Shown one piece after another: positions 10,845-37,147 of a DNA stretch of 49,085 nt. The stretch covers positions 1 through 49,085 of the forward strand of contig DAIDHK010000010.1 of assembly GCA_027459725.1 (NCBI GenBank), read 5' to 3'. Source of the stretch: Candidatus Levyibacteriota bacterium. GTDB taxonomy: Bacteria; Patescibacteriota; Microgenomatia; Levybacterales; UBA12049. The translations under genes were made by a program, and so were the position numbers. Numbering within the stretch: the first letter of the stretch is position 1; every line of letters begins with the position of its first letter. The notes below the pieces were generated by a model. The model was not told where the DNA came from. It was given only the letters and a program-made list of their open reading frames with translations, and did not search any database.

Positions 10845-10866
10845 ATTCTATTAGTATATTAACCTA

Positions 10867-11598: not shown

Positions 11599-11662
11599 CA
11601 GTCAGTATTTTTATCTTAGCATATACTAATTGATTTTGAATTTACAGTAAATTTGTTTCCTC

Positions 11663-11692
11663 TTGTTGTAAAAGTTTATTTATGTCTATAAT
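11663..11692 (+). promoter_or_regulatory. Predicted purF promoter
   Basis: TTGTTG (11663-11668) and TATAAT (11687-11692) are spaced by 18 bases. Six bases after TATAAT is the ATG of a 20-codon reading frame, so the transcript would begin with that small ORF rather than with purF. Confidence 0.55.
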
Positions 11693-11698
11693 AAAATT

Positions 11699-11758
11699 AT
11701 GTATCCCCTGCCATGTAATAATTTATTTCGCTGCCTTCATAAAGGAGGACATAATTAA
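11699..11758 (+). CDS. Putative leaderless leader peptide of purF
   Basis: A 19-residue reading frame, MYPLPCNNLFRCLHKGGHN, begins exactly 6 bases after the TATAAT box and ends 3 bases before purF. The purF Shine-Dalgarno AAAGGAGG lies inside its last codons. Ribosomes translating this peptide would cover or expose the purF start region, suggesting coupling or attenuation. It is too short for statistical support; the arrangement is the evidence. Confidence 0.4.
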   Translation: MYPLPCNNLFRCLHKGGHN

Positions 11759-11761
11759 TTT

Positions 11762-13228: not shown

Positions 13229-14285
13229 GCACAATAATTACCTGCCTCTCACCCTTCTCAACATATCCCGCCAGCCAACTTTTAAACTTAAGTTTTTTAG
13301 CTATCTTTTGTGCTTCCACAATATATTTTTCTTCCAGAAACATTGCAAATCCCGCCCCCATGTTGAAATTGCCATACATTTCCTGATCATCACTTCCTGA
13401 CTGCTGTTGGATAAAATCAAACAAAATTTGAGGCTGGGGAATGTTTTCCAGTAAATACGTAAATTTTTTCTCAGCTCGCATCAGTTTGCGCCAACCATGT
13501 CCAGTGATATTAACCATATAATGAATCTTTATTCCATTTGCCAGTAATTCTCTAATTAGTCTTGCATAAATATGGGTCGGTATCAGAAGTGATTCTCCGT
13601 ATGTTCTGCCGTTTGGTAAAACTGTAGCATAATTCATTTTCAATTTACCGGCAATTTTACGAGCCAGGGTCAATCCGTTCGCATGTATACCGCTGCTCTC
13701 AATTAATAAAATGGCATCTCCCGCTTTTAAATTATCACCCAGAACTAGATTTCTTTTTGGACGGATAATTCCCACTGCTGATCCCCCAAGATCTATGGAT
13801 TTGGGATTAATAATTTCCTTAAGCGTTGGCGTTTCTCCACCACCCCAGACAGCGCCAGCCTGTTTAACGGCTTGCGCCCACCCTTCTATCAAATCTTTAG
13901 CACGCTGTTTATCCGCAAACCAGTTAGAATCTCCAACTGCAAAATAAGCATTAACTATTTGCGGATCTGCACCAACTACAATCAAATCATTTACAATCAT
14001 GGCTACCGTATCTTGGGCAATAGCATCATAATACGTTTTCTTTCCGTATTTTCTCATAGCATCGGCAACCAGATTTTTTGTACCTAGTCCTTCGATCACG
14101 AATGCATGGAAAGCTTCTTTTTCTTCCCATACATACGCTGATTCACCACGACTGTCAGCCACTTCAAACATAGCAAGACGACGCAAATTAGTCGCGGTCG
14201 ATTTAGCCCGTATTTGCGCTAACTTTTTAATCGGATCCATTAGATTATAATCTACACCAGATGATGAGTAAGTAATTTTTTTCAT
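13185..14285 (-). CDS. purM: AIR synthase (PurM)
   Basis: This ATP-dependent enzyme closes the imidazole ring (FGAM to AIR). Visible are the AIRS-fold features 'AQDTVAMIVNDLIVVGADP', 'GGETPTLKEI' and 'GDAILLIESSGIHANGLTLAR', plus 'NITGHGWRKLMR'. The length of 366 is close to the usual 340-350. It is separated from purQ by 199 bases and has its own promoter, so it may be regulated apart from the purB-Q operon. It shares its last 44 bases with purF on the other strand. Confidence 0.92.
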   Translation of the reverse strand: MKKITYSSSGVDYNLMDPIKKLAQIRAKSTATNLRRLAMFEVADSRGESAYVWEEKEAFHAFVIEGLGTKNLVADAMRKYGKKTYYDAIAQDTVAMIVNDLIVVGADPQIVNAYFAVGDSNWFADKQRAKDLIEGWAQAVKQAGAVWGGGETPTLKEIINPKSIDLGGSAVGIIRPKRNLVLGDNLKAGDAILLIESSGIHANGLTLARKIAGKLKMNYATVLPNGRTYGESLLIPTHIYARLIRELLANGIKIHYMVNITGHGWRKLMRAEKKFTYLLENIPQPQILFDFIQQQSGSDDQEMYGNFNMGAGFAMFLEEKYIVEAQKIAKKLKFKSWLAGYVEKGERQVIIVPKKLVYKAETLDLR

Positions 14286-14418
14286 AGAGAAATAATTTAA
14301 TTAAATTCAATGATTTTATTTTTCATATCAATGTTAATTATTTAGTTTTTAGAACAAAACATAATGAACTGTTTATTGTCAGATCTGCTAGACTTTTCTT
14401 AATCACTCCCGTTCCGGA

Positions 14419-14447
14419 TTTAAATATCTATACAATTGTCCTGTCAA
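14419..14447 (-). promoter_or_regulatory. Predicted purM promoter
   Basis: On the minus strand, TTGACA (14447-14442) and TTTAAA (14424-14419) are 17 bases apart. The leader to purM would be about 125 bases. It contains a GTG-started 22-codon frame (14406-14338), followed by a 9-codon frame just before purM; either may be chance. No known purine riboswitch core was recognised. Confidence 0.5.
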
Positions 14448-14484
14448 AATCAAAAGCGATAAGATAGCTATGAGGAATCATAAT

Positions 14485-15273
14485 TTATGCTTTGTTGACA
14501 AACTTCACAGCATTTTTAAAAATCTGCAAGCCATGTGGATCTTCAATGCTTAATCTTCGCCAGTTGGGATACTGTTCGCGTAGTACAAATCTCTCAGGAT
14601 GAGGCATGAGACCAAAAATTCTACCCGAAGAATCTGTAATGCCTGCAATCGCGTTTAGCGAACCGTTGGGATTAGCGGGATAACTCATTGTTGCTTTTCC
14701 AGTTCCGTTAATGTAGCGCAAACCCACCAGATTCTCATCTTCTATGATATCCAGAATTTTTTCTTGTGTAAAAAACCTTCCTTCTCCATGGGCAACCTGA
14801 TAGCTGACTTTCTGACCTCCCATATCTCGCAAAAAAGGCGAATTATTCCTATCTTCTATCTGTAAGTTGACCCATCGGCATTCGAGATGACCACTGTAAT
14901 TATTAGCTAATGTTACATCCATTTGTCCAATTCTGGCAAAGGGTAATAAACCTGTACGCACTAATACTTGAAACCCATTGCAGATACCAATCGTCAGAGT
15001 ATCTTTGCGATCGATAAACTTTTTGATTGTTTCTGAAAAAAATGAAGTCATTTCTGTAGCTAAAATCTTACCCGAGGCAATATCATCTCCATAAGAAAAC
15101 CCACCAGGTAACGCTATTATTTTATAATCCAGTATTTTTTTTGGATTATTACGTAAATCATTTACGTGTACATACTCGGGATTCCCCCCAGCCAGCCTAA
15201 AAGCAAACTCCAGCTCTTCATCACAATTGATTCCGTCAGTTTTTAAAATTAATATTCTGGCTTTGGTCTTCAT
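14485..15273 (-). CDS. purQ: FGAM synthase glutaminase subunit (PurQ)
   Basis: This class I glutamine amidotransferase supplies ammonia to PurL. The nucleophile Cys is in GICNGFQVL near residue 98, and the His/Glu pair in GLMPHPERF near 228. 'LPGGFSYGDDIASGK' is typical. The length of 262 fits the longer bacterial PurQ type. It begins 2 bases after purL, so the two subunits are coupled. Confidence 0.93.
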   Translation of the reverse strand: MKTKARILILKTDGINCDEELEFAFRLAGGNPEYVHVNDLRNNPKKILDYKIIALPGGFSYGDDIASGKILATEMTSFFSETIKKFIDRKDTLTIGICNGFQVLVRTGLLPFARIGQMDVTLANNYSGHLECRWVNLQIEDRNNSPFLRDMGGQKVSYQVAHGEGRFFTQEKILDIIEDENLVGLRYINGTGKATMSYPANPNGSLNAIAGITDSSGRIFGLMPHPERFVLREQYPNWRRLSIEDPHGLQIFKNAVKFVNKA

Positions 15274-15275
15274 AT

Positions 15276-18128
15276 TTATCCAACACTACCAAATAAGTCT
15301 TCAAATGGTTTCTGCCATGATTTTTTTAAAACTGAAATATCTGCTGAGAAAACCTCTTTCTTATCCTGCATAACTGAAATTATCTGTTCTGTAGTAATTT
15401 CTCCAAGTAATCTATGTGGAATTTTGGAAAATAATTTTTCGCCTATTTTTCGACTTTCCACCTCTACTATAAAGCATCCAGCGGTCTCATTAAATAATGC
15501 ATACATTAACTGATCTCTTTGTGTTAATTTTATTCTTATACCAAGATTACCACCTATACACATCTCGAACAAACTTGCTATTAATCCTCCTTCACTAACG
15601 TCATGACAGGCTAAAATTCTGTTTTTACTGATTCCACTATAAACTACTGAAAATACTTGCTTAACTAGTTTTAAATCCATTTGAGGAACACGGTTTTCTG
15701 GAAATTTTGCCCTACTGATTTCCGAATATATAGAACCCTCCATTGCTTCCAAATCCTGCTTACCAACTAAATAGACAACAGAGCCTTCCTGTTTAAAATC
15801 AGCCGTAACCGTCCTGGAAACATCTGGTATTTTCCCAAACACTGACATGCACAGTACAGGAGGAATTTTAATTACTTCCCCGTCTGGTCCACGATATGTT
15901 GATGATAAACTGTCTTTGCCAGAAATAACTGGTATATTGAATGCTTTCATGACATCAACCACTGCATCAACTGATCTATCCAGAGTCCACAAGGCATCTT
16001 CATCTGGAAACGGCCATATGTAATTATTAATTAGAGCCGCCTGCCGATAATCTCCACCTACGCAAACATAATTAGCCAAAGCTTCCACCGATGCCCAGAT
16101 ACTTCCCCAGTAAGCATCATAATTATTTAAAACAGGATTTAATCCATGTGCAATAATCATGCCATATTGCTTATTTAGCATCGGTCTAATTACTGCAGCA
16201 TCCATGGGACCTTGTAGGGACAATCCCGCGTAAGGAGGTATAACACTAGTCCCCTGCACTGTGTGGTCATACTGTCTGACAATAGGTTCTTTTGAACATA
16301 CATTGCCATGAGACAGGACATTTTGTACGATTTTTATCCAGTCTTTTTGAGATCTTAAATTGACTGGGCTGTTAGGTGACTGTTTTGGAAGTGTGGAACT
16401 GTTTTCATTTTTCTTTGCCATCATTTTTCTTTGCGGTAAACCATGATGCAGGAAATTCATATCGAGATTACATACCAAATCCTTTCCATAATAAACCCGT
16501 AGCTTTTTACTTCCATCAAACTTCCCAAGTACAGCCGACTCTACGTTATGCCTATTACATAAGGCAACAAACTTTTTTAATTTTGATTTCTCCACAGCTA
16601 CTACCATTCTTTCCTGTGACTCAGAAATCCAGATTTCCCACGGAGACAATCCCTGATACTTCAAAGGGGCTTTGGACAAATCTACATTAACTCCTGTTTC
16701 CTCCCCCATTTCGCCAATCGCGGAGGAAAAACCTCCTGCTCCACAATCCTGAATTGTAGTAATAAGATTCCGATCCCGCGCTTCTATTAATGCATCGAAC
16801 ATTCGTTTTTCTTCAATCGCATTGCCAATCTGCACGGCTGAAGAATTAACCGAGATTGTACGATGACTCATCTCCCCACTGGAAAATGTAGCACCATGGA
16901 TTCCGTCCCTACCGGTTTTTCCACCAACTGCAACAACCACCTGACCAACTTTAGCCTTACGTTTTTTAGCCTTTTTAGTCGGCAAAGTCCCATAGGCACC
17001 CACAATAATAGTCGGTTTGGCACGAAAATCAGGATGAAAATGTATAGAACCATTATTGGTTGGAATACCCATCCGATTACCATAATCGCGCACTCCAGTA
17101 ACCACTCTCTTTAGTAAATACTCTGGTGGAAGACATCCGGTAGGTAATTCGCTGGAAGGTAAATTTACCGGCGCGAAACAGAACATATCTGTTGAAGCAA
17201 CCGTCTTACCACCCAGCCCGGTACCCAGAACATCACGAAATACTCCTCCGCTGCCTGTCATTGCGCCTCCATAGGGCTCAATAGCTGAGGGACTGTTATG
17301 GGTTTCAACTTTGCCGCAAATTGACAACCCATCATAAAACTCAAGTACCCCGGAATTATCCACAAATGCTGATACAATATTCTTATCATGCTTAAGAGCT
17401 TCATTCTGAAGTCGTTTAATCAAAGGCAACTTTTTCTTTCCATCCACCACCAAATCAGCTTTAAATGTTTTATGGGCACAATGTTCACTCCAGGTTTGAG
17501 CTAAGGTCTCCAGTTCACAATCCGTAGGATCACGTCTCAATTGCTTGAAGTATTTCTGAATAATTTTCATTTCCTCCAGATTGAGAAACAGTTTATCTCT
17601 GGATAGAGACATCAGAGTCTCATCACTCATTTTTCGCAAAGATATAACCGCTGTATGTCCCTTTGAGGGTTTAATAACTAAAGTAGATGGATCTTTATCT
17701 ACAATATACTCAACTGTATGATTTAGAAGATTTAATTTTTTACTTAAATTTGAAACATCCTCTTCTTTGCTTCTGCTATAGAAGTAATATTCCCAACTTG
17801 CGTCGGCAGCTACTAGATTAACTCCCAAATCTTTAGCGGCTTTAATAATAGATGCTACTTCAGGATTCATAACACCCGGCTTATAAGCGATTTCTATTTT
17901 TTGTCCACCATTAATAACATGCTTATTCAATGCATAATCCTGATTGATCTCCTCGCATAAAAGTTTTTTTGCCAGCCTTTCAGCGGCGGAAGCTGTAATT
18001 CCTTCCAAACGATATACTCTTACAGTGCGTACACTTGTGATAGCTGTACCAGACAGCTCGGATAATATCCCTTTACCTCTTAAATCCTCATCTGCGTATT
18101 TACTGGTAACTCTAATTGTCTGGATCAT
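15276..18128 (-). CDS. purL: FGAM synthase with PurS-like N-terminal region (PurL)
   Basis: The ATP-dependent synthase subunit converts FGAR to FGAM. At 950 residues it is longer than small PurL (about 740) and shorter than large PurL (about 1300). The first 150 residues look like two PurS-type ferredoxin-like repeats (TIRVTSKYADEDLRGKG and a second near 75-115). These are followed by the PurL core, with 'TWSEHCAHKTFK', 'VETHNSPSAIEPYGGA', 'GGKTGRDGIHGATFSS' and 'ISGKDSL'. No separate purS is present, consistent with fusion. It overlaps purC by 17 bases and precedes purQ by 2. Confidence 0.93.
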   Translation of the reverse strand: MIQTIRVTSKYADEDLRGKGILSELSGTAITSVRTVRVYRLEGITASAAERLAKKLLCEEINQDYALNKHVINGGQKIEIAYKPGVMNPEVASIIKAAKDLGVNLVAADASWEYYFYSRSKEEDVSNLSKKLNLLNHTVEYIVDKDPSTLVIKPSKGHTAVISLRKMSDETLMSLSRDKLFLNLEEMKIIQKYFKQLRRDPTDCELETLAQTWSEHCAHKTFKADLVVDGKKKLPLIKRLQNEALKHDKNIVSAFVDNSGVLEFYDGLSICGKVETHNSPSAIEPYGGAMTGSGGVFRDVLGTGLGGKTVASTDMFCFAPVNLPSSELPTGCLPPEYLLKRVVTGVRDYGNRMGIPTNNGSIHFHPDFRAKPTIIVGAYGTLPTKKAKKRKAKVGQVVVAVGGKTGRDGIHGATFSSGEMSHRTISVNSSAVQIGNAIEEKRMFDALIEARDRNLITTIQDCGAGGFSSAIGEMGEETGVNVDLSKAPLKYQGLSPWEIWISESQERMVVAVEKSKLKKFVALCNRHNVESAVLGKFDGSKKLRVYYGKDLVCNLDMNFLHHGLPQRKMMAKKNENSSTLPKQSPNSPVNLRSQKDWIKIVQNVLSHGNVCSKEPIVRQYDHTVQGTSVIPPYAGLSLQGPMDAAVIRPMLNKQYGMIIAHGLNPVLNNYDAYWGSIWASVEALANYVCVGGDYRQAALINNYIWPFPDEDALWTLDRSVDAVVDVMKAFNIPVISGKDSLSSTYRGPDGEVIKIPPVLCMSVFGKIPDVSRTVTADFKQEGSVVYLVGKQDLEAMEGSIYSEISRAKFPENRVPQMDLKLVKQVFSVVYSGISKNRILACHDVSEGGLIASLFEMCIGGNLGIRIKLTQRDQLMYALFNETAGCFIVEVESRKIGEKLFSKIPHRLLGEITTEQIISVMQDKKEVFSADISVLKKSWQKPFEDLFGSVG

Positions 18129-19038
18129 ATTTGAGTATTAGTTCTTTTGTTATTCTCCTTTTATCTGTAATAAACTTTTCCCCTGTTATTTTTTCATAAA
18201 TCGCAATATATCTTTTACTGATTTTATCGATAAATGACTTGGGCATTTTGGGTGGCTTCCCATCCCCGCTATAACCTTTCTTCTTAAACCAGATGCGCAT
18301 AAATTCTTTATCAAAATTTTCAGGCTCCTCACCCTTTTTAAATCTCTCTCTATAAGTTTCTCTTATCCAGAAACGTGATGAATCAGGAGTATGAATTTCA
18401 TCTATTAGCATTAACTTACCTTTATATATCCCGAATTCATATTTTGTATCAACTAAAATAATACCTGCCCTAGCACATATTTCTGTTCCTCTCTTGAAAA
18501 GATTCAAGGCAGCTTGTTCTAGTTGGGCATATTTTTTCGGGGTTAGGATTTTACGTTTAATGATTTCCTGTTTAGTAATTTTTTCATCATGTCCCTTTGT
18601 TGCTTTGGTTGTAGGAGTAATTACCGGTTGCATCAATTTCTGATTTTTACGCAATCCCTCAGGGAATTTAATACCATAAATAACTCTTTCCCCTTTTTCA
18701 TAAGCTCCCCATATAGATGTATTAGTCACACCTGATATATATCCCCTAACCACAATTTCCAGAGGAATCGGCTCGGCCTGGTGAGCAATCATTACATTGC
18801 TGTGTGGAACAGAAATCATCTGATTTGGTACAATATCAGCTGTCTTTTCAAACCAGAACTTGGACAATAATGTCAAAACCTGCCCCTTATATGGTATGAA
18901 ATCTAAAACCCTATCAAATGCAGAAATTCTATCTGTAGCTATCAGAATTTTGGTGTCATTCACATTATAACAATCGCGTACTTTACCGCTATATTTTTTA
19001 CCTAAACTTCTTAAATCTACTGACTTTAATACAGCCAT
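18112..19038 (-). CDS. purC: SAICAR synthetase (PurC)
   Basis: The enzyme joins CAIR and aspartate with ATP. Visible are 'GKVRDCYNVNDTKILIATDRISAFDRVL' near the N-terminus, 'EIVVRGYISG', and 'LVDTKYEFGI...LIDEIHTPDSSRFW' near 205-232. The length of 308 matches the longer bacterial/yeast-type PurC. It starts 1 base after purE and overlaps purL at its end, indicating one transcript. Confidence 0.94.
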   Translation of the reverse strand: MAVLKSVDLRSLGKKYSGKVRDCYNVNDTKILIATDRISAFDRVLDFIPYKGQVLTLLSKFWFEKTADIVPNQMISVPHSNVMIAHQAEPIPLEIVVRGYISGVTNTSIWGAYEKGERVIYGIKFPEGLRKNQKLMQPVITPTTKATKGHDEKITKQEIIKRKILTPKKYAQLEQAALNLFKRGTEICARAGIILVDTKYEFGIYKGKLMLIDEIHTPDSSRFWIRETYRERFKKGEEPENFDKEFMRIWFKKKGYSGDGKPPKMPKSFIDKISKRYIAIYEKITGEKFITDKRRITKELILKYDPDN

Positions 19039-19039
19039 T

Positions 19040-19564
19040 TTATTGTTTAAACTCTTTTAAATACCTTCTAAAACCCGTCTTTTCCAGCTTATTGGCTTTG
19101 TCGACAACTTCTTTTTCCATTTTTCCCATATATTGTTTAACTTTTTTTGTTAACACATCATCTGATACAGCCAGCATTTTTACTGCCAATAATCCGGCAT
19201 TTTTTGCTCCATTAATTGCCATTGTGGCAACAGGAACTCCGGGAGGCATTTGGACTATTGAATATAAAGAATCCAGGCCACTCATAGTTTTTGACTCCAC
19301 TGGAACGCCTATTACCGGGAGTGTAGTAACAGAGGCTACCATTCCCGGGAGATGAGCTGATCCACCTGCTCCAGCAATGATTATTTTTAAACCTTTTTCA
19401 CGAGCTTGTTTAGCATAATCAAACATTCTTTGTGGAGTTCTATGAGCGGATACGATAGTCAACTCATAAGGAATTGAAAATTCATCGAGAATAGTGGCAG
19501 CAGTAGACATGACCGTAAGGTCAGAATCCGAACCCATTATTATGCCGATTTGAGGTTTTCTCAT
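19040..19564 (-). CDS. purE: N5-CAIR mutase (PurE, class I)
   Basis: It rearranges N5-CAIR to CAIR. The signature '[14 protein letters not shown]' is at the N-terminus, followed by '[10 protein letters not shown]' and '[15 protein letters not shown]'. The length of 174 is standard. Presence of purK supports the class I (N5-CAIR) route. A 92-base gap from purK contains a good promoter, so purECLQ can probably be transcribed separately. Confidence 0.95.
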
Positions 19565-19577
19565 CTACAACAAACTT

Positions 19578-19605
19578 ATTATATGTTAAATAGTAATAAA
19601 TGCAA
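19578..19605 (-). promoter_or_regulatory. Predicted internal promoter ahead of purE
   Basis: TTGCAT (19605-19600) and TATAAT (19583-19578) are 16 bases apart on the minus strand, with 13 bases from the -10 box to the purE ATG. The leader would be only about 7 bases. Confidence 0.55.
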
Positions 19606-19656
19606 GAGTTTTAAAACTAAAATTTAAACAATAAATCTAAGTGATAAAAATCAGAC

Positions 19657-20784
19657 TTATATTGAAATAGTTTTTCTTGCTTTTTTAGCTTTATTTAAAC
19701 ATTCTTCAACTGATTTCCCTACTACGGTTATATGACCCATTTTTCGCTCCAACTTGGTTTCGGCTTTACCATAGAGATGAACTGAGACATTGCTCATCCG
19801 TAAAGCTTTTTCCAGGTTCTTTACATCTGCTGATCCTTTTCTTTCACCTAAAATATTTATCATTACAGCAGCCGGAACTTTCATGTCCGGATTACCCAGA
19901 GGTAGACCTGTAACAGCTCGAATGTGTTGCTCAAACTGTGATGTATAACATGCTTCGATTGTATAATGACCCGAATTATGTACACGTGGTGCAATTTCGT
20001 TAATCAATACTTCTCCTTTTTTTGTCAAAAACATTTCTATAGCAAAAACTCCTGCTCCTTTGAGATGATTCATAACTCGTGTCGCTAGTCGTTTTGCTTT
20101 TTGCTCGTATTTTTTATTTATTGGAGCCGGTGCCATTACGATATGACAAATATTATTCTTATGAATTGTCTCCACTACCGGATAAGAAATAAGCTTCCCC
20201 TTTATATCCCTGGCTATAACCACTGCAAGTTCTTTAACAAACGGAACGTATTTCTCAACGTATAAATCCTTTCCCCCCAGGCGCATAAACTCTTTGGCAA
20301 TATCTTCTTTTCTTTTAATTAATGCGTTTCCTCGTCCGTCAAAAGCATTTAATTTTGCTTTAAGTAAAAATGGAAATCCAAATTGTTTTGCAGCAGTCTC
20401 AATTTCTTTTATGCTGCTAACTTCCAAATATTTCGCAGTTGGAATTTTATTTTTTGCTAAGTATTCTTTCTGAGCAAGTTTATTTTTTATCATCTCAATC
20501 GTTCTGGGAGCAGGATTCACAATTGCACCTTCACTAGCTAACTTTTTAAGCGTATCTGTATTTATATGCTCTATCTCAACGGTTATAAAATCCGAAATAC
20601 CTGCCAGTTCTTCAGTTACTTCCGGATCTGAATAATCACCTTCCAGTTGTAAATCTACAACCTGGCCGGCCGGACTATGCGGAGTTGGATCCATTACTGA
20701 GACTATAAAGCCCATTCTTTTAGCTGCAAAACCGAGCATCCTACCCAGCTGTCCTCCACCAACAATACCAATTCGACTTTTCAT
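19657..20784 (-). CDS. purK: N5-carboxyaminoimidazole ribonucleotide synthase (PurK)
   Basis: This ATP-grasp enzyme carboxylates AIR. The N-terminal 'IGIVGGGQLGRMLGFAAKRMG' is the PurK signature. 'FPFLLKAKLNAFDGRGN' and 'EIAPRVHNSGHYTIEAC' are ATP-grasp landmarks. The length of 375 is standard. It starts 3 bases after purB and precedes purE. Confidence 0.95.
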   Translation of the reverse strand: MKSRIGIVGGGQLGRMLGFAAKRMGFIVSVMDPTPHSPAGQVVDLQLEGDYSDPEVTEELAGISDFITVEIEHINTDTLKKLASEGAIVNPAPRTIEMIKNKLAQKEYLAKNKIPTAKYLEVSSIKEIETAAKQFGFPFLLKAKLNAFDGRGNALIKRKEDIAKEFMRLGGKDLYVEKYVPFVKELAVVIARDIKGKLISYPVVETIHKNNICHIVMAPAPINKKYEQKAKRLATRVMNHLKGAGVFAIEMFLTKKGEVLINEIAPRVHNSGHYTIEACYTSQFEQHIRAVTGLPLGNPDMKVPAAVMINILGERKGSADVKNLEKALRMSNVSVHLYGKAETKLERKMGHITVVGKSVEECLNKAKKARKTISI

Positions 20785-20787
20785 AGA

Positions 20788-22200
20788 TTATCTTTTCCTG
20801 ATTTCTTTAACTGCTTTTTCAGTCAATTTTTCTGCCAGACCAGTATATGACTCTGGAGTGATTTTTTGGAGTAACTTTTTCTCATGGGGTTTGATTGGTA
20901 GTAATTCAATCCATTCCTCCCATTCTTTACGCTCAATATGAGTTCCCCTGCTAAGAGAGGCCACAAGAGAATAAGGATCAGTACTACCTGTTTTCCTTAA
21001 AATAGTCTGTACTCCTTCTGTCAATATAGTCCAGTCTTTATGTAAATCTTTTTCAATCTTATTAAAGTTAGGTTTTACCCGAGTTAAGCCTGAAAGGATA
21101 CTTTTATATCCTAATGTACAAAATCCAATAGCCGTTCCACTATTACGAATAACCGTGCTATCCGATAAATCTCTTTGCAAGCGCGATATCATTAATTTAC
21201 GTACAAAAAATTCCATCAATGAATTTGCTAACCCCAGATTACCCTCACTGTTTTCAAAATCGATCGGATTCACTTTTTGTGGCATGGTAGAAGATCCAAC
21301 TTCACCCTTCTTGGCTTCCTGGATAAACCATCCGTCACTGATATATCTCCACATATCCTGATCAAAATCGATAAGAATATTATTTATTCTTTGCAGAATT
21401 TGCCAATATTCACTTAAATCATCATAGGGGTTAATTTGTGTGGTTATATAATTTGTTTGTAGATCTAATGAACTAATAAACCGTTGAGAAAACTCTATCC
21501 AGTTTACTTTTGGAAAGGTCAAAAATAAGGCATTGTAGTTTCCCACAGCTCCGTTTAATTTCCCTGTTAATTTTTGTTTTTCCAATAACCTGACTTGTCT
21601 ATGTAGACGATAGGCAAACAATACTAATTCCTTGCCTAAAGTTGTGGGTACAGCTGCCTGTCCATGCGTTCTGGCCAGCAGGGTAACGCTTTTATATTCA
21701 TCCGCCTTATCAGTCAACTGAGTAACTATCTGATTAAGAGATGGTAAAACAACTTTTTGAACACCACGATAAACCATAAGACGATATGCTAAATTATTTA
21801 TATCTTCCGATGTCAAACCAAAATGAATTTTCTCAACGACATCGGCCAGCGAACTGTCATTGAATAAAGAACGCATAGTTCTTTCCATCGCTTTTACATC
21901 ATGCCTAGTCTGCTTCTCGATTTCTTTTACTCTATGCGCGACTTCAATAGTTATTCTGTCTGAGAAATTTAACAGTTCATTCTTTTCTTTGGAGGTTAAA
22001 GAGCGTAATATTTTTGCGTCAGACAACGCAATTAAATACTTCGCTTCAATCTCGAATCTTATTTTTATTAGACTATATTCTGAAAAATATTCGGCCAATT
22101 CAGCCAGTTTATTACGGTAACGTCCGTCCAGAGGCGTGATTGAGGTAAGTTCCTGTAAAGCTAATATTGAAGATGAATTATCAGAGACGGTTTTTTTCAT
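20788..22200 (-). CDS. purB: Adenylosuccinate lyase (PurB)
   Basis: This fumarase-superfamily lyase acts on SAICAR and adenylosuccinate. 'ITPLDGRYRNK' near residue 18 is the E. coli-type PurB start region. The superfamily signature 'GSSTMPQKVNPIDFENSEGN' lies near 300-320. 'TSEDINNLAY' and 'ARTHGQAAVPTTLGKE' are also present. The length of 470 is normal. It heads the purBKECLQ cluster; TTGTAA-N17-TAGAGT lies 19 bases upstream. Confidence 0.95.
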   Translation of the reverse strand: MKKTVSDNSSSILALQELTSITPLDGRYRNKLAELAEYFSEYSLIKIRFEIEAKYLIALSDAKILRSLTSKEKNELLNFSDRITIEVAHRVKEIEKQTRHDVKAMERTMRSLFNDSSLADVVEKIHFGLTSEDINNLAYRLMVYRGVQKVVLPSLNQIVTQLTDKADEYKSVTLLARTHGQAAVPTTLGKELVLFAYRLHRQVRLLEKQKLTGKLNGAVGNYNALFLTFPKVNWIEFSQRFISSLDLQTNYITTQINPYDDLSEYWQILQRINNILIDFDQDMWRYISDGWFIQEAKKGEVGSSTMPQKVNPIDFENSEGNLGLANSLMEFFVRKLMISRLQRDLSDSTVIRNSGTAIGFCTLGYKSILSGLTRVKPNFNKIEKDLHKDWTILTEGVQTILRKTGSTDPYSLVASLSRGTHIERKEWEEWIELLPIKPHEKKLLQKITPESYTGLAEKLTEKAVKEIRKR

Positions 22201-28443: not shown

Positions 28444-28449
28444 CTATTT

Positions 28450-28571
28450 ATTCTTTCGGGGTTTTGTGTAAATCAAAATCGGTGGTAAACTCCACGAGTC
28501 CTTTTATATATTAAGGACACGAACTGGTGAAAATCCGGTAGCGACCGTACAGTCGGGATAAAAGAAAGATA
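28450..28571 (+). ncRNA. FMN riboswitch (RFN element)
   Basis: P1 pairs TCTTTC (28452-28457) with GAAAGA (28564-28569). Conserved internal parts are in order: TTTTG/CAAAA hairpin, GGTGGTAAACTCCACGAG (28481-28498), CTGGTGAAAATCCGG (28524-28538), GCGACCGTACAGTCGGGATA (28541-28560). These match the FMN aptamer, which binds FMN and usually shuts off riboflavin genes. The downstream genes are a riboflavin-type ECF transporter, which agrees. Cobalamin and other riboswitches were considered and do not fit. Confidence 0.92.
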
Positions 28572-28641
28572 TAATCTGAACATGATATATTGCGGTGTTA
28601 AATACAATGTATATCTTGTAATTAGATTATTGAATATTACA

Positions 28642-28663
28642 CCCCGAAAATCGGGGTTTTTTT
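28642..28663 (+). terminator. Riboswitch-controlled terminator / start-site hairpin
   Basis: CCCCGA-AAA-TCGGGG is followed by seven T and then directly by the ATG of the S-component. An antiterminator is visible: GGTGTTAAATA (28594-28604) can pair with TATTACACC (28636-28644). A further alternative pairs AAGATAT (28566-28572) with ATATCTT (28611-28617), which would open P1. The GGGG arm is the only Shine-Dalgarno-like sequence for the gene, so the same hairpin may also block translation. Confidence 0.8.
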
Positions 28664-29233
28664 ATGGGAAAAAATAGATTAACAACTAGAGAAATGGCAA
28701 TAGCAGCAGGACTTGCAGCTTTTTCAGCTGTTGTCCAGCTAATTCATATTGGTTACGAATCTCCACAGTTTGGCATGTGGATCGATATAGTCGCAGTAAC
28801 CTGGATCATAGGACTTTTCCTTTTTGGTCTGAGAGTTTCTTTCATTGTCTCTTTACTTGGCGCTATTATTATTACACTTTTTGCTCCAGATACATGGTTG
28901 GGTGCTATTACAAAATGGCTTGCCAGTTTTCCAGGCTGGTTTATTCTTGGAATATGGTTAATGAACAAGCAGACTCCTTATGAATATTATAAAAAATTTT
29001 CACATTTACTTATTCCTTTAATTGTGGCGATTATAATTAGATGTGCGATAATTATACCTGTTGACTATTATTATGCCATTCCAATCTGGACGGGAATGTC
29101 TGCAGCTAAGGCTATGATTGCCATACCTTGGTATATCATTGGTCTATTCAATATCGCTCAAAGCCTGGTAGATGTTATTTTAGCTTGGCTTTTGGTCTAT
29201 AAATTCCGCCTTGACCGATTCGCCTCTAAATAG
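28664..29233 (+). CDS. ECF transporter S-component, riboflavin (RibU-like)
   Basis: This is a 189-residue membrane protein with about six hydrophobic segments. The N-terminal 'LTTREMAIAAGLAAFSAVVQLI' is typical of ECF S-components. It binds vitamin outside and hands it to the T/ATPase module. Riboflavin specificity is inferred from the FMN riboswitch directly upstream and the riboflavin kinase nearby. It starts on the last T of the terminator and is followed 16 bases later by the ATPase gene. Confidence 0.85.
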   Translation: MGKNRLTTREMAIAAGLAAFSAVVQLIHIGYESPQFGMWIDIVAVTWIIGLFLFGLRVSFIVSLLGAIIITLFAPDTWLGAITKWLASFPGWFILGIWLMNKQTPYEYYKKFSHLLIPLIVAIIIRCAIIIPVDYYYAIPIWTGMSAAKAMIAIPWYIIGLFNIAQSLVDVILAWLLVYKFRLDRFASK

Positions 29234-31021: not shown

Positions 31022-31741
31022 TCAATACTCTTCAAGATATCCATCAAAACTATCTGTCTTAATGCGAATATTATTTATATGCATGCTTTCCAATATTTCT
31101 ATAGTTGCGTCTACAAACCCCGGAGGACCTGAGATATAACTTACTGTATCATTGTCAAATGAAACTATCTCTTCTAATTTTTCTTTCGTCAGTCTACCCT
31201 CTTTCTGTGTGACTATATAATGTATTTTTAGATTGTTTAATTCTCTCTGCAAAGTGTTTAATTCATTTTTGAAGATGAATTCTTCATTATTGTTAAGATA
31301 GATAAGCGTAATATCATCCTTTGTTATTTTTGGGTATTTGGGATAATTCTTCTGTTTTTTTTGAATTTTTTCAAAAACTAACATGGATCTAAAAGGTGTA
31401 ATTCCGATGCCACCCGCTATAAATATTGCTTTATGCTCTGGTAGATAATTAAATGTATTTCCATAAATCCTCATTAGCAAAACATCTCCAATTCTTAATT
31501 TTGCCAGTCTGCTTTTATATTCAGTTATACCCCTGCGAAATGTGATCACTAGATAATCTTCTGTTGGAGAAGAAGAGAAAGAGAAGGTTTTGAAATAGAC
31601 ACTTTGGTCTTCGAAACTTAAATCTGCGCATTCGCCCGGTGTAAAATCAAATCCCTGAGGTTTTATAAAATATATCGAAAGACAATCACTGCCTACTTGC
31701 ATTATCTTGTTTACTTTTATTTTAAATATGTTTTCACCCAT
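31022..31741 (-). CDS. Ferredoxin reductase-like flavoprotein (FNR superfamily)
   Basis: The FAD-binding beta barrel occupies residues 1-100. 'FKTFSFSSSP' takes the place of the RxYS motif. The NAD(P) domain follows with AGGIGITPFRSM near 111-122 and 'YISGPPGFVDA' near 203. The C-terminus 'IKTDSFDGY' is typical of the family. No iron-sulfur domain is attached, so the electron partner is unknown. It is divergent from the ATP-citrate lyase operon; TATAAT lies 16 bases upstream of its ATG. Confidence 0.85.
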   Translation of the reverse strand: MGENIFKIKVNKIMQVGSDCLSIYFIKPQGFDFTPGECADLSFEDQSVYFKTFSFSSSPTEDYLVITFRRGITEYKSRLAKLRIGDVLLMRIYGNTFNYLPEHKAIFIAGGIGITPFRSMLVFEKIQKKQKNYPKYPKITKDDITLIYLNNNEEFIFKNELNTLQRELNNLKIHYIVTQKEGRLTKEKLEEIVSFDNDTVSYISGPPGFVDATIEILESMHINNIRIKTDSFDGYLEEY

Positions 31742-31848: not shown

Positions 31849-33057
31849 ATGGCAAGAGCAAAACTCAGTGAATTTAAAGCAAAACAGATACTAACACGGG
31901 CTTTAGGTATACCATTTACAGGATATGAAATTACCTCAGAAAACATACACAAAGTTGTAACAATAAATTCAGGGGATAAAAATAATCAGACATATGTCGT
32001 AAAGGTAGATCAGGGTGTTAAAGGTAGATTTAAAAAAGGCTTGGTAGCTATAGACAAACCCATAGAACAAATTCCCTCTATCATCAAAAAATGGGAACAA
32101 AATGGTTATAAACAATTTTATCTGGAACCTTTTATAAATCATTTGACTCAGGAAGAAAAATATTTATCAATTGAGAGGACCAGAGATGGATTTAAAATCC
32201 TATTCAGCCAAATTGGTGGTATTAATATTGAAGAACATCCCGAATCTATTCAAGAGATAGTCCTCCCCTATGAAAATAAATCAGGAGAAGATGTGCAAAA
32301 AATCATACATCATTTAAGTCTTCATGAGAAATCATTTACAAGTATGCTAAAGGCTTTTGATGATAATTATTTTGCATTTCTCGAGATAAATCCCTTGCTA
32401 ATAAATGCTGATCGAATTATTCTTTTAGACGCTGCTGTAGAAGTAGATAGTAGTGCTGAGTTTTTCTTGTCAGATGGATCCTGGACATCTAGAGATTTTA
32501 ATGACTACTCATCAAGCACTAAAACACAAGAAGAAAAAGTTGTTGCAGATCTTGCGAGACACAGTACTGCTGCTTTTAATTTAACACTTCTTAACCCTAA
32601 CAGCAACCTCTTCATGTTATTATCAGGCGGTGGTGCCAGTATTGTATTAGCAGATGAGGCTTTTAATCAAGGCTTTGGTAATATAATAGCCAACTATGGA
32701 GAAAGTAGCGGTAGCCCCACAACTGAAGAGTCATATTTATACTCAAAACAACTAATTTCTCTACTTAAAAAATCTACAGCTCCTAAAAAATCATTACTGA
32801 TTGCAGGCGGCGTAGCCAATTTTACTGATGTACGCAAAACTTTTCAGGGTGTCATTCAAGCTCTGGAGGAAGAGAAAACAAACCTGCAAAAATTAGGTGT
32901 AAAAATTTTTGTCCGCCGTGGTGGACCACATCAGGCAGAGGGACTAAACTTAATGCGTGACTTTTTGCAGAAAAATAATCTTTTTGGAGAAGTCGCCGGT
33001 CCTGAAATGATCTTAACTGGAATTGTTGATAAAACACTGAATTTTATACAAGAATAA
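31849..33057 (+). CDS. aclB: ATP-citrate lyase subunit, ATP-grasp type (AclB-like)
   Basis: At 402 residues it has the size and layout of the small ATP-citrate lyase subunit (about 398), related to succinyl-CoA synthetase beta. Visible are 'VVKVDQGVKGRFKKGLV', 'FYLEPFINH', 'YFAFLEINPLLI' and the C-terminal CoA-ligase part 'LLSGGGASIVLADEAF', 'NYGESSGSPTTEE', 'LIAGGVANFTDV'. With the next gene it would cleave citrate with ATP and CoA to acetyl-CoA and oxaloacetate. Gene order B-then-A matches green sulfur bacteria. A plain succinyl-CoA synthetase is unlikely given the citrate-synthase-type partner. Confidence 0.85.
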   Translation: MARAKLSEFKAKQILTRALGIPFTGYEITSENIHKVVTINSGDKNNQTYVVKVDQGVKGRFKKGLVAIDKPIEQIPSIIKKWEQNGYKQFYLEPFINHLTQEEKYLSIERTRDGFKILFSQIGGINIEEHPESIQEIVLPYENKSGEDVQKIIHHLSLHEKSFTSMLKAFDDNYFAFLEINPLLINADRIILLDAAVEVDSSAEFFLSDGSWTSRDFNDYSSSTKTQEEKVVADLARHSTAAFNLTLLNPNSNLFMLLSGGGASIVLADEAFNQGFGNIIANYGESSGSPTTEESYLYSKQLISLLKKSTAPKKSLLIAGGVANFTDVRKTFQGVIQALEEEKTNLQKLGVKIFVRRGGPHQAEGLNLMRDFLQKNNLFGEVAGPEMILTGIVDKTLNFIQE

Positions 33058-33068
33058 CTTTTTAAATT

Positions 33069-34859
33069 ATGCTAAATATATCAGCTATAAGGAATATTGA
33101 TCCTAAAATTCTTGTTTTGGGCAACTATCCTGTCATACAGTCAATACTGGATTTCGATTATCTCAGTAGAAAACAGAGTCCAAGTGTATTAGCAATTATT
33201 GCTTCAGGAAAAAAATTTCAGAAATATTTTTTTGGTAAGCAGCAAATCCTTATTCCTACCTATCCGGATATTAAAAACTTACCAGATGAATATAAAAAAC
33301 AAATAAACCTATGTCTGAATGTACTATCCAACCGACGTATACTTTCCAGTACTGAGGAAACTTTTATGACACTACCAAACTTGACAGGCGGTGTAATTTT
33401 CGCAGAAAATGTTCCTGAAAAACATGCTTTAGAAATCGAACAGCTAGCAAAAAAATATCAAAAATGGATAATAGGTCCTGCCAGTATAGGTTTACTAATC
33501 CCCCAACATTTAAAACTAGGAGTCATTGGCGGTGTGGACGCAAGACAATTCCTGCAGTCTAATCTGTTACAAGTTGGTGATATCGCTGTACTCTCTGCAT
33601 CAGGCGGAATGACCGGTGAGCTTATGAACGTAGTAGCTCAATCAGGCAGACATTTATCTTTTGCTCTGTCTTTTGGAGGCGATCGCTTCCCCGTTCTTAC
33701 TCCAAAAGATGCTTTTTTAACAGCTGAAGCTGACTCTCAAACCAGCACTATTATTTATTACGGAGAACTGGGAGGATATGATGAATATGAAATTATTGAA
33801 CTATTAAAAAATAAAAAGATCACTAAAGAAGTTATTTGTTACATAGGGGGAGCTATTGCCACTCTATTCCCTCAATCCCCACAGTTTGGTCATGCCAAAG
33901 CCATGGCCAAAAATGATAAAGAAACTGCACAAGCAAAACGGAAAGCTTTAAAATCTGCTGGAGCAAAAGTTGGAGAAACATTTAATGAATTTGTAGAGTT
34001 GATCAATCAGGGTAAACATGAGAAAATCAGATTGCATATAGTTTCCAACCTACAAAACATGATGGATAAAATTTCTCAGCGCAAAGAACCACTTATAACC
34101 ACTACCATTTCTGCAGATATTGATGGACAGCCTACCTTACTTGGACAACCACTTCTGGATCTGGCCAAAAACAATTCATTTGCAAACATTGTCGGCTCTT
34201 TATTCCTGGGAAGAAAGCTGTTATCTAAAGATACTGAGAATTTTATTGATATTGTGCTCAAAACGACAGTTGATCATGGGCCATATGTCTCAGGTGCAAT
34301 GAATACAATTGTTACCGCCCGGGCAGGCAAAGATTTAGTATCGTCACTAGCCGCTGGTCTTTTAACCATTGGCCCACGTTTCGGCGGAGCTACTAATGAA
34401 GCTGCCAATCATTGGCTAACTGGCGTAAGTAATAATATAAAACCTGAAGATTTCGTCGAACAGATTGCCAAACAGGGAAAAAGAATTCCCGGAATCGGAC
34501 ATCGAAAATATCGCGTAGATCATCCAGATCCTCGGGTAAAACTTCTATTGGATTATACAAAAAGTCTGACAGAAAAAAGATTTACTGAATACGCATTGCA
34601 TATCGAAAAAATCACGACAGTTAAAAAAGGTAATTTAATTTTGAATGTAGACGGTACAATCGCATGTATCATGCTGGATATACTTTCTGAGAAAGAGAAA
34701 CTGACTGATGAGCAACTAAAACAACTGGTAAATGCTGAATTTTTTAATACTCTTTTCGTGCTATCGAGGTCAGTTGGCTTTATCGCTCATTTTCTAGACC
34801 AAAAACGACTCGATGAGGGACTATTTAGGTTGCCGGAAGAATTGGTGGCTAAAATATAA
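33069..34859 (+). CDS. aclA: ATP-citrate lyase subunit with citryl-CoA lyase domain (AclA-like)
   Basis: The first part (to about 320) is CoA-ligase alpha-like, with 'LSASGGMTGELMNVVAQSGRH' and the phospho-His motif QFGHAKAM near 275. The C-terminal 270 residues are the citrate-synthase-like citryl-CoA lyase: 'LTIGPRFGGATNEAANHWL', 'GIGHRKYRVDHPDPRV' near 475, 'LILNVDGTIACIMLDIL', 'FLDQKRLDEGL'. These match the C-terminal half of animal ACLY closely. The length of 596 agrees with AclA (about 610). It lies 11 bases after aclB without a clear ribosome binding site. Confidence 0.9.
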   Translation: MLNISAIRNIDPKILVLGNYPVIQSILDFDYLSRKQSPSVLAIIASGKKFQKYFFGKQQILIPTYPDIKNLPDEYKKQINLCLNVLSNRRILSSTEETFMTLPNLTGGVIFAENVPEKHALEIEQLAKKYQKWIIGPASIGLLIPQHLKLGVIGGVDARQFLQSNLLQVGDIAVLSASGGMTGELMNVVAQSGRHLSFALSFGGDRFPVLTPKDAFLTAEADSQTSTIIYYGELGGYDEYEIIELLKNKKITKEVICYIGGAIATLFPQSPQFGHAKAMAKNDKETAQAKRKALKSAGAKVGETFNEFVELINQGKHEKIRLHIVSNLQNMMDKISQRKEPLITTTISADIDGQPTLLGQPLLDLAKNNSFANIVGSLFLGRKLLSKDTENFIDIVLKTTVDHGPYVSGAMNTIVTARAGKDLVSSLAAGLLTIGPRFGGATNEAANHWLTGVSNNIKPEDFVEQIAKQGKRIPGIGHRKYRVDHPDPRVKLLLDYTKSLTEKRFTEYALHIEKITTVKKGNLILNVDGTIACIMLDILSEKEKLTDEQLKQLVNAEFFNTLFVLSRSVGFIAHFLDQKRLDEGLFRLPEELVAKI

Positions 34860-34930: not shown

Positions 34931-35887
34931 ATGGGAAAGAGAAAAATACTCGTTACAGGTGCGTTTGGTTTAGTAGGTACTGATTTAGTATCAGAACTTC
35001 GTAAGAAATACTCTGCCAAAGACATTGTTGTTACCGCTCATAATACTATCCGGGATGGTTTTGATGTAATCGTTGAACATGGAGATGTCACTGATGAAAA
35101 TTTTCTTGAGAAAATAATCAAAAAACATCAAATTACAGATGTTTATCATCTCGCAGGACTATTATCAGTTGGTAGTGAAAAAGATCCTCAATTAGCCTGG
35201 AGAATTAATCTGGGAGGATTGAAAACTGTACTAGATCTGGCTGTAAAATATAAAGTTAAAGTATTCTGGCCAAGCTCAATTGCGGCATTTGGACCAACAA
35301 CACCTAAAGAAAATACACCACAACATACTGTTCTGGAACCAACAACGATGTATGGCGTAAATAAAGTTTCTGGAGAACTTCTGTGTCAATACTATAATTT
35401 ACGATATGGTCTAGATGTAAGGAGCTTGCGCTACCCAGGTTTAATAGCATATAAAGCACCTCCAGGAGACGGTACTACAGAATACTCTGTACATATTTTT
35501 TATGCAGCATTAAAAGATAAAAAATATACATGTTTTCTTGACAAAAACTCACGACTACCAATGATGTTTATTGACGATGCAATCAAGGGAACACTACAAC
35601 TAATGGCTGCACCACCGGAAAAAATTACTATTCGTACTAGTTACAATTTCGCTGCCATAAATTTCACTCCAGAAGAGTTAGTCGCAGAAATAAAAAAGAA
35701 TATGCCGGAGTTTACATGCGAATATAAACCTGACCATCGACAGAAAATTGCTGACTCCTGGCCCAAATCTTTGGATGATTCACAAGCTAAAAAAGATTGG
35801 GACTGGAAACCTGAGTATGATTTATCTAAAATGACTAAAGTAATGTTGAAGGAAGTGAGTAAAAAACTAAGATCTGGCAGTAAATAA
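34931..35887 (+). CDS. L-threonine 3-dehydrogenase, epimerase-like SDR type
   Basis: This extended SDR of 318 residues has the NAD loop TGAFGLVG at 9-16 and the catalytic Tyr/Lys in YGVNK near 145. 'LSVGSEKDPQLAWRINLGGL', 'WPSSIAAFGPTTP' and 'RYPGLIAYKAPPGDGTTEY' are signatures of the epimerase-like threonine dehydrogenases. It oxidises threonine to 2-amino-3-ketobutyrate. The kbl gene follows by 6 bases, which strongly supports this role over UDP-sugar epimerase. Confidence 0.88.
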   Translation: MGKRKILVTGAFGLVGTDLVSELRKKYSAKDIVVTAHNTIRDGFDVIVEHGDVTDENFLEKIIKKHQITDVYHLAGLLSVGSEKDPQLAWRINLGGLKTVLDLAVKYKVKVFWPSSIAAFGPTTPKENTPQHTVLEPTTMYGVNKVSGELLCQYYNLRYGLDVRSLRYPGLIAYKAPPGDGTTEYSVHIFYAALKDKKYTCFLDKNSRLPMMFIDDAIKGTLQLMAAPPEKITIRTSYNFAAINFTPEELVAEIKKNMPEFTCEYKPDHRQKIADSWPKSLDDSQAKKDWDWKPEYDLSKMTKVMLKEVSKKLRSGSK

Positions 35888-35893
35888 AACATT

Positions 35894-37147
35894 ATGAATA
35901 AGAACTTTAAACAGATACTATTGAGTGAGATCAAACGCATAGACACTGTCGGCAGTACAAAACGTGACGAGGTTATCATTGATGGTTTTACTAGAGAAGC
36001 TTCACCCAAAGCACTCATAAAAAATAAAAAATATCTTGTATTTAATTCCAATGATTATCTGGGCCTCAGATTTAATAAAGATGTTATTATTGCTGAGCAT
36101 AAAGCCTCTGATAAGTTTGGTGCTGGCCCAGGAGCTGTAAGATTCATTTCTGGAACATTAAAGATATATAAAGAACTTGAAGCTGCCATTGCCAAATTTC
36201 ATGATCGTGAGGAGGCTATGGTCTTTTCTTCTGCGTTCGCAACTAACGTTGCAGTAATGTCTTGCTTACTTAAAGCTCAGAGCAAAGACTCATTGCTTTC
36301 CAATGAAGTTTGCGTAATTTCTGATACTTTGAACCACCGCAGTATCATTGATGGTATCAGGGCGGCTAGTATTGAGAAAGATCAAAAATTTATCTACAAA
36401 CATTTGGACTTTGACGATTTAAGAAAAGTACTTATGGAAAATCAGACAAAATTTAAGCGTGCTGTAGTGGTAACAGATGGAATTTTTAGCATGATTGGTG
36501 AACATACGGATATCAACAAACTCAAAACAATTTGTCAGAAATTTGATAAGGAGTATGAACAAGGGGTCTTTCTGGTAGTTGATGACAGCCATGGAGTCGG
36601 CTCTTATGGAGCAACCGGACGGGGTTGTGAAGAAAAAAGTCATGGCATTGCTGATGCACTGGTGGGCACTTTTGGTAAAGCTTTCGGTAGTGATGGGGGT
36701 TATGTAGTGGGTGACAAAGTATTCATTGATTATCTAAGAGAATCAGCAGCTACTTACATATATTCCAACTCTATCTCCCCTTCTGTCGCCGGAGCAGCTT
36801 TGCAGTCAGTTAAGATTGTCTCATCTACTAAAGGTAAGACCTTATTTAAAAAATTGCAGGATAATATGCAGTATCTTAAACAGCAAATGGTTAAAGCTGG
36901 ACTACAATTTGCCGCAGAATCTGATCATCCTATTCAGCCTCTTCTTGTGGGAGACACAATGAAAGCCAAGCAGTTAAAAGATATGCTGTTTAAACAAGGA
37001 ATTATAGTCACCAATATTACTTACCCAGTTGTACCTAAGGGTAAAGACGAAATTCGCATTCAGATTAATGCTTCACATACAAGAAAAGATATAGATCAGC
37101 TTGTTAAATGTTCTGCTAAGTCCGCCAAACAGTTAGGTATTATCTAA
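35894..37147 (+). CDS. kbl: 2-amino-3-ketobutyrate CoA ligase (glycine C-acetyltransferase)
   Basis: This is an alpha-oxoamine synthase with PLP. 'NSNDYLGLRFNKDV', 'GAGPGAVRFISGT', 'VDDSHGVGSYGATGRG' and the PLP-Lys motif GTFGKAFGSDGG near 255 are visible. It splits 2-amino-3-ketobutyrate with CoA into glycine and acetyl-CoA. The length of 417 is slightly above the usual 398. Directly downstream of the threonine dehydrogenase, it completes the pathway. 8-amino-7-oxononanoate synthase (bioF) is a related alternative made unlikely by the context. Confidence 0.9.
   Translation: MNKNFKQILLSEIKRIDTVGSTKRDEVIIDGFTREASPKALIKNKKYLVFNSNDYLGLRFNKDVIIAEHKASDKFGAGPGAVRFISGTLKIYKELEAAIAKFHDREEAMVFSSAFATNVAVMSCLLKAQSKDSLLSNEVCVISDTLNHRSIIDGIRAASIEKDQKFIYKHLDFDDLRKVLMENQTKFKRAVVVTDGIFSMIGEHTDINKLKTICQKFDKEYEQGVFLVVDDSHGVGSYGATGRGCEEKSHGIADALVGTFGKAFGSDGGYVVGDKVFIDYLRESAATYIYSNSISPSVAGAALQSVKIVSSTKGKTLFKKLQDNMQYLKQQMVKAGLQFAAESDHPIQPLLVGDTMKAKQLKDMLFKQGIIVTNITYPVVPKGKDEIRIQINASHTRKDIDQLVKCSAKSAKQLGII

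Follow-up and report, generated by a model that had tools for sequence, protein, structure and literature searches.

What does a bacterium in which no tricarboxylic acid (TCA) cycle can be found do with an ATP-citrate lyase (ACL), an enzyme whose presence is usually interpreted as pointing to CO2 fixation or to lipogenesis? The question is raised by a 49,085-nucleotide contig of Candidatus Levyibacteriota bacterium (DAIDHK010000010.1; hereafter the window), which carries both genes of a two-subunit ACL, aclB and aclA, at positions 31849 to 34859. The host genome (G000), in which the window is contig C10, comprises 1,495,103 bases in 52 contigs and is 98.7% complete. The host is a Levybacterium (Levybacteria, Microgenomatia), a member of the candidate phyla radiation (CPR). 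We lean modestly toward the reading that ACL, encoded in an apparent operon aclB-aclA-tdh-kbl, cleaves citrate to provide this cell with oxaloacetate and with acetyl-CoA that goes largely to the acetylation of amino sugars.

The enzyme and its history in the CPR

By its domains and residues, the locus is a genuine heteromeric two-subunit ACL (EC 2.3.3.8, predicted activity). The small-subunit gene, aclB (31849..33057, + strand), encodes 402 amino acids (aa) with ATP-grasp and citrate-binding domains; after an 11-bp gap, aclA (33069..34859, + strand) encodes the 596-aa large subunit, with a CoA-ligase domain and a citryl-CoA lyase/citrate-synthase module. Both open reading frames (ORFs) are intact. 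AclB matched the Pfam families Citrate_bind (PF16114, 167 bits against a cut-off of 26.8) and Citrate_synth_N, the ACL-specific ATP-grasp model (PF24948, 108 bits against a cut-off of 83), and AclA matched Ligase_CoA (PF00549, residues 175 to 298) and Citrate_synt (PF00285, residues 236 to 587). Among PDB structures, AclA gave full-length matches to the ACL of Methanosaeta (6hxi, 7e-113) and human ACLY (2e-110) and a weaker match to that of Chlorobium (6hxj, 2e-80); AclB matched human ACLY (1e-60).

The phospho-histidine of AclA, H275 (codon 33891..33893, + strand, motif QFGHAKA), was kept in all 53 CPR sequences covering the site and is the same in human, Methanosaeta, and Sulfurovum ACL, as are the catalytic residues of the citryl-CoA lyase module (34275..34652, + strand), H403 (34275-34277), H478 (34500-34502), and D528 (34650-34652). 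In AclB, the citrate-binding residues S287-G288 and N324-F325-T326 (32707..32826, + strand) align with S308-G309 and N346-F347-T348 of the human enzyme, and together with N181, D194, R356, and R357 they match both human and Sulfurovum ACL. All of the catalytic and citrate residues checked were kept in the 52 to 54 CPR ACLs aligned; the exception was an Asn at the site of H403 in two Woesebacteria.

An earlier note on this DNA had described two intact subunits with the phospho-His motif and the citryl-CoA lyase domain, and ORFs, Pfam, PDB, and residues agree with that description. The note had also raised the chance that catalytic residues would prove substituted in alignment; they are conserved. 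Its boundaries, 31849 to 34859, are correct for the two ORFs but miss the downstream tdh and kbl. Conservation of the phosphoryl-transfer, citrate-binding, and citryl-CoA-cleavage residues across the CPR also makes it quite improbable that the pair is a relic, or an altered enzyme that lacks ACL activity or acts on another 2-hydroxy acid, even though no citrate source is known and AclB diverges faster than AclA (62% versus 78% identity to the sister locus, L247).

ACL, or enzymes resembling citryl-CoA synthetase and citryl-CoA lyase (Ccs/Ccl), are common in some CPR lineages: 60 of 374 genomes of the class have a protein of the Citrate_bind family, in two score groups. The high-scoring group (19 genomes, 169 to 217 bits) has ACL as in the window. 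The low-scoring group (about 40 of the 374, 73 to 101 bits) has, where examined, three-gene Ccs/Ccl-like sets; one of these (L172:1827-5434) matched citryl-CoA synthetase (6hxq, 1e-56) and citryl-CoA lyase (6hxp, 1e-67). An alignment scan for AclA, whose patterns favor CPR sequences, gave 54 loci from Levy-, Woese-, Roizman-, and Saccharibacteria, Magasanikbacteria, Parcubacteria, WWE3, records labeled Patescibacteria or "bacterium," and one euryarchaeote. In the AclA tree, 54 rows fell into one CPR clade (100/100 support, stem 0.82), in which the window sequence is sister to L247. Outside it were human, Methanosaeta, and Sulfurovum, the last being the only bacterium with a reverse TCA (rTCA) cycle that the tree took in, and the more conventional ACLs of a few other CPR (L275, L277, L279). 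At five loci on a basal branch of the clade (L228, L233, L258, L259, L260), AclA is split into two genes, one for the CoA-ligase half and one for the citryl-CoA lyase half. The tree suggests that ACL is old within these bacteria; an older, ancient transfer into the CPR may have occurred.

The window ACL lies inside this strongly supported CPR-wide clade, which gives no support to the idea that it came recently from an rTCA organism. The earlier note had suggested a possible horizontal acquisition and had pointed to the rTCA gene order. The order aclB-aclA, with aclB 5' of aclA, is indeed that of rTCA bacteria, and the gene pair is small and isolated; but the clade has a long stem with Sulfurovum outside it, the Chlorobium ACL scored below the archaeal and human ones, the same four-gene cluster is present in the sister species, and GC content is 36.2% in the window versus 35.6% in the genome. 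We consider recent acquisition from an rTCA bacterium, or contamination of the contig, very improbable. That the genome is from the CPR, which the note had thought probable, is upheld because the closest named relative, Candidatus Levyibacteriota isolate clean344 (L247), has an AclA 78% identical; its alternative, a non-CPR organism with an rTCA cycle, was not borne out.

Central metabolism of the host

We searched the genome (rebuilt to 1,491,156 of its 1,495,103 bases) with E. coli queries for most enzymes, at E ≤ 1e-3 and by sequence searches only. In G000, as in the other 17 ACL-bearing genomes examined, the sole citrate-synthase domain is that of AclA itself; none of these 18 yielded a citrate synthase. 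No aconitase-family protein was found in G000. Nor did the E. coli queries find orthologs there of pyruvate dehydrogenase (PDH), pyruvate:ferredoxin oxidoreductase (PFOR), pyruvate formate-lyase, succinate dehydrogenase, SucC, malate dehydrogenase (MDH), fumarase, isocitrate dehydrogenase (IDH), phosphoenolpyruvate (PEP) carboxykinase, malic enzyme, Pta, AckA, acetyl-CoA carboxylase, FabH/F, AtoB, CitT, or ThrABC. The rTCA partners of ACL (2-oxoglutarate:ferredoxin oxidoreductase/PFOR, fumarate reductase, aconitase, IDH, MDH) were thus absent from G000 in these searches. Matches to the PDH E1, Lpd, FumC, GltA, SucD, and AccC queries were rejected as orthologs; the proteins matched read as a transketolase-like protein, flavoproteins, an adenylosuccinate-lyase-like protein, AclA, and a large ORF of the size of carbamoyl-phosphate synthase. 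Of the matches to PF00330 in other genomes of the class, those of ∼470 aa were rejected as aconitase because in length and score they look like LeuC.

Since the cycle enzymes were not found and AclA has the only citrate-synthase domain, the host appears to use neither the TCA nor the rTCA cycle, and the note's expectation of a CPR genome without a TCA cycle holds. More generally, it is wrong to take ACL as a marker of carbon fixation in CPR metagenomes, because no citrate synthase was found in 18 ACL-bearing genomes. Because NDH-2, cytochrome bo3, and an F-type ATPase are present, the host nonetheless looks able to respire oxygen. An NDH-2-like dehydrogenase is encoded at window positions 2114-3403 and cytochrome bo3 oxidase at C6:8774-12288; the two look like a short aerobic respiratory chain in this Levybacterium, as predicted from the genes.

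Several enzymes of acetyl-CoA and oxaloacetate metabolism are present: an archaeal-type PEP carboxylase (PEPC; C2:43745-45262, TIGR02751, 474 bits), an acetate-CoA ligase (Acs; C4:73195-74844, NF003313, over cut-off) that adjoins a PEP-synthase-like gene, and GlmS and GlmU-type enzymes, with a glmS/glmU cluster on a contig other than the window. The earlier note, which left the use of acetyl-CoA and oxaloacetate unexplained, had missed PEPC, Acs, and tdh-kbl. A homocitrate-synthase-like protein is a possible further user of acetyl-CoA. It belongs to a LysW-type amino-acid cluster (C1:147090-152374) with a carrier protein (C terminus EDWGE) and LysX/Y/Z/J-like genes; in a genome in which no homoaconitase (aconitase family) was found, this is a truncated or altered lysine/arginine pathway.

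Gene neighborhoods and the proposed use of acetyl-CoA

The ACL pair ends at 34859, and the apparent operon, all on the + strand, continues to 37147. Seventy-one bp 3' of aclA is tdh (34931..35887), encoding an SDR-type L-threonine 3-dehydrogenase of 318 aa (PDB threonine dehydrogenases 7cgv and 2yy7, 1e-120 to 6e-112), and 6 bp after it is kbl (35894..37147), encoding a probable 2-amino-3-ketobutyrate CoA ligase (glycine C-acetyltransferase) of 417 aa (3tqx, 1e-68; E. coli Kbl 1fc4, 2e-65). The best NCBIfam model for the latter, PRK06939, gave 334 bits, under its cut-off of 460; the position behind tdh fits Kbl. Tdh and Kbl are predicted to convert threonine to glycine and acetyl-CoA. Promoter and terminator scans gave signals no stronger than in shuffled sequence.

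The association of tdh-kbl with aclBA recurs at four Levybacteria loci in three layouts: aclBA-tdh(SDR)-kbl (the window and L247), aclBA-tdh(MDR, E. coli type)-kbl (L213), and tdh(MDR)-x-kbl-aclBA (L211). Because two nonhomologous Tdh families are involved, the pairing suggests selection for linkage. At another Levybacteria locus (L218), the order is acs-aclB-aclA. Other neighbors belong to wall and amino-sugar synthesis: MurB directly 3' of aclA at six Levybacteria loci, Ddl 5' of aclB at two, glmS within two genes downstream of aclA at seven Saccharibacteria-type loci, an acyltransferase-3 upstream of aclB at four Saccharibacteria loci, and a phosphosugar mutase beside aclBA at five to six loci, with sugar nucleotidyltransferases also alongside (Saccharibacteria). 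The Ccs/Ccl set of L172 begins with a gene that overlaps one for a stand-alone GlmU acetyltransferase. At 20 of 58 ACL loci, a co-oriented wall or sugar gene was no more than two genes away; across 4,000 draws of other positions on the same contigs, the count averaged 3.3 and never exceeded 10. This comparison is descriptive because the panel of genes was chosen after the neighbors had been seen.

Because amino-sugar and acetylation genes adjoin ACL loci, we read the enzyme as a provider of acetyl-CoA. AclAB would convert citrate, ATP, and CoA, via phospho-His275 and citryl-CoA, to acetyl-CoA and oxaloacetate; Tdh and Kbl would be an alternative source of acetyl-CoA, plus glycine, from threonine. 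The main role of acetyl-CoA would be to donate acetyl groups for building the cell envelope (UDP-GlcNAc by a GlmU-type acetyltransferase; O-acetylation in relatives), oxaloacetate would go to aspartate, and ACL would take part in neither CO2 fixation nor a TCA cycle. We infer the cleavage direction, the substrate supply, and the product use, counting in their favor the acetyl-CoA-making neighbors (tdh-kbl, acs), the neighbors in other CPR that use acetyl-CoA or act downstream of such use, the position of the nonorthologous Ccs/Ccl set right behind GlmU acetyltransferase, and the GlmS and GlmU-type enzymes of the host. Of the note's acquired route to acetyl-CoA, the route is the likeliest use of the enzyme, but an acquisition from rTCA organisms is not supported.

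Several points weigh against this preferred reading. The gene panel was post hoc and the 58 loci share kinship; the cell-wall neighbors are found in relatives, not in the window; and the presence of kbl did not track that of ACL in the family (30/73 genomes). ACL would not be the only supplier, since the host has Acs and Tdh-Kbl, and PEPC for oxaloacetate. The missing citrate transporters are a weakness of any cleavage reading: in searches of the 18 ACL genomes for four families (PF03600, PF00939, PF01970, PF03390), no DASS, TctA, or 2HCT transporter was found, and CitMHS gave one clear match (G137), one weak match over cut-off (G124), and none in G000.

Two roles are conceivable for Tdh-Kbl and Acs: they may be alternative suppliers, or they may feed an ACL running in reverse. 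In the second case, the enzyme would be an ATP-forming citrate synthase, combining acetyl-CoA (from threonine by Tdh-Kbl or from acetate by Acs) and oxaloacetate from PEPC with ADP and Pi to give citrate, ATP, and CoA; citrate would be exported or serve as a chelator, and an energy-poor cell would gain substrate-level phosphorylation. If true, a CPR bacterium with no TCA cycle would be gaining energy by producing citrate. The host encodes suppliers of both substrates and no transporter of the families searched to feed cleavage, PEPC is three genes away from aclBA at Roizmanbacteria-type loci and, on the downstream side, also in Saccharibacteria L243, and there is a precedent, judging from its title, in Desulfobacter postgatei (Moller et al. 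1987, cited in PMC12137691). However, neither an aconitase nor another way of using citrate was found in G000, archaeal-type PEPC is missing from 10 of the 19 ACL-bearing genomes of the class, its association with ACL by genus was not significant (4/14 versus 30/266, P = 0.075), and it never came within two genes of aclBA. ATP-forming citrate synthesis was our first working idea, from PEPC and tdh-kbl, and was demoted because the PEPC link is weak and because the GlmS, acyltransferase, and GlmU-acetyltransferase neighbors point to acetyl-CoA use. We regard it as unlikely, if still worth serious attention.

Citrate might instead be cleaved mainly for oxaloacetate, as a source of aspartate and hence of purines, with acetyl-CoA as a by-product. 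The window has an apparently complete de novo purine pathway at 9492-22200 (PurD, N, F, M, Q, L, C, E, K, and B, names inferred from sequence), which is unusual for CPR. In genus g63, one genome (G283) has ACL and no PEPC and another (G212) has PEPC and no ACL, as if the two were alternative sources, and an aminotransferase follows aclA in L243. An aminotransferase near ACL in L155 was dropped as evidence because it is probably not an aspartate aminotransferase; its homologue in G000 scores best as LL-diaminopimelate aminotransferase. Since PEPC is present in G000 and most of the recurrent neighbors relate to acetyl-CoA or amino sugars rather than aspartate, we think this use rather improbable as the main one.

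Other features of the locus and genome were also recorded. A divergent ferredoxin/flavin reductase-like protein (31022..31741, - strand) adjoins aclB, at the same position as in the sister genome; its link to ACL is uncertain. An FMN riboswitch (Rfam, 88.5 bits) stands 5' of an ECF-type riboflavin transporter-like gene and then ABC-type transporter genes (window 28448-29233). Besides the regular F-ATPase on C2, the genome has three clusters encoding alpha and beta subunits like those of F1-ATPase (C5:19013-25046, C7:8417-13705, C18:6565-12663), with ORFs where b, delta, gamma, and epsilon are expected and no obvious a or c subunit; we take them to be reminiscent of mycoplasma F1-like ATPases. 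Putative CofD-like and CofE-like (F420 synthesis) and F420-dependent-oxidoreductase-like genes adjoin PEPC (C2:40962-43632).

Relation to known ATP-citrate lyases

The recurrent link of ACL to GlmS, GlmU acetyltransferase, O-acetylation, and MurB suggests a testable source for the acetyl groups of peptidoglycan in reduced CPR cells, and citrate, from hosts or groundwater, becomes a candidate nutrient for them. ACL in CPR has already been published; the gene-context pattern is new as far as we searched. In the open-access literature (subscription journals lay outside the search), we found no paper combining citryl-CoA with the CPR and no description of a tdh-kbl or cell-wall linkage of ACL.

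Sieber et al. 2019 (PMC6851277) reported a two-subunit ACL in the CPR Gracilibacterium BD1-5/Detritibacteria, with a predicted role in turning citrate from outside the cell into acetyl-CoA and oxaloacetate, and called it archaeal-like and laterally transferred, with a GHAGA motif and two putative citrate transporters. The window ACL, in contrast, has GHAKA, belongs to a clade of the CPR's own, and is attached to tdh-kbl, and searches for four transporter families found none in its genome. A 2025 study found aclAB enriched in Saccharimonadia metagenome-assembled genomes, also with ndh2 (PMC12577380); the passage concerned lists the same gene pair simply as an annotation that is enriched and gives neither its context nor a phylogeny.

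Ccs and Ccl (6hxq, 6hxp), with homologues in other Microgenomatia (L172 and others), catalyze the same net reaction as ACL as three separate proteins, a group distinct from the window enzyme. The ATP-forming ACL of D. postgatei (Moller et al. 1987) would, as far as its title tells, share a possible reverse use, but that organism oxidizes acetate through the citric acid cycle, for which G000 lacks the enzymes. The ACLs of Methanosaeta concilii (6hxi) and Chlorobium limicola (6hxj) and the fused human ACLY have the same AclB and AclA domains and the same catalytic and citrate residues, and the aclB-aclA order is that of known two-subunit ACLs. Unlike them, the window ACL belongs to a separate CPR clade, in a host with neither a TCA nor an rTCA cycle, and is clustered with tdh-kbl.

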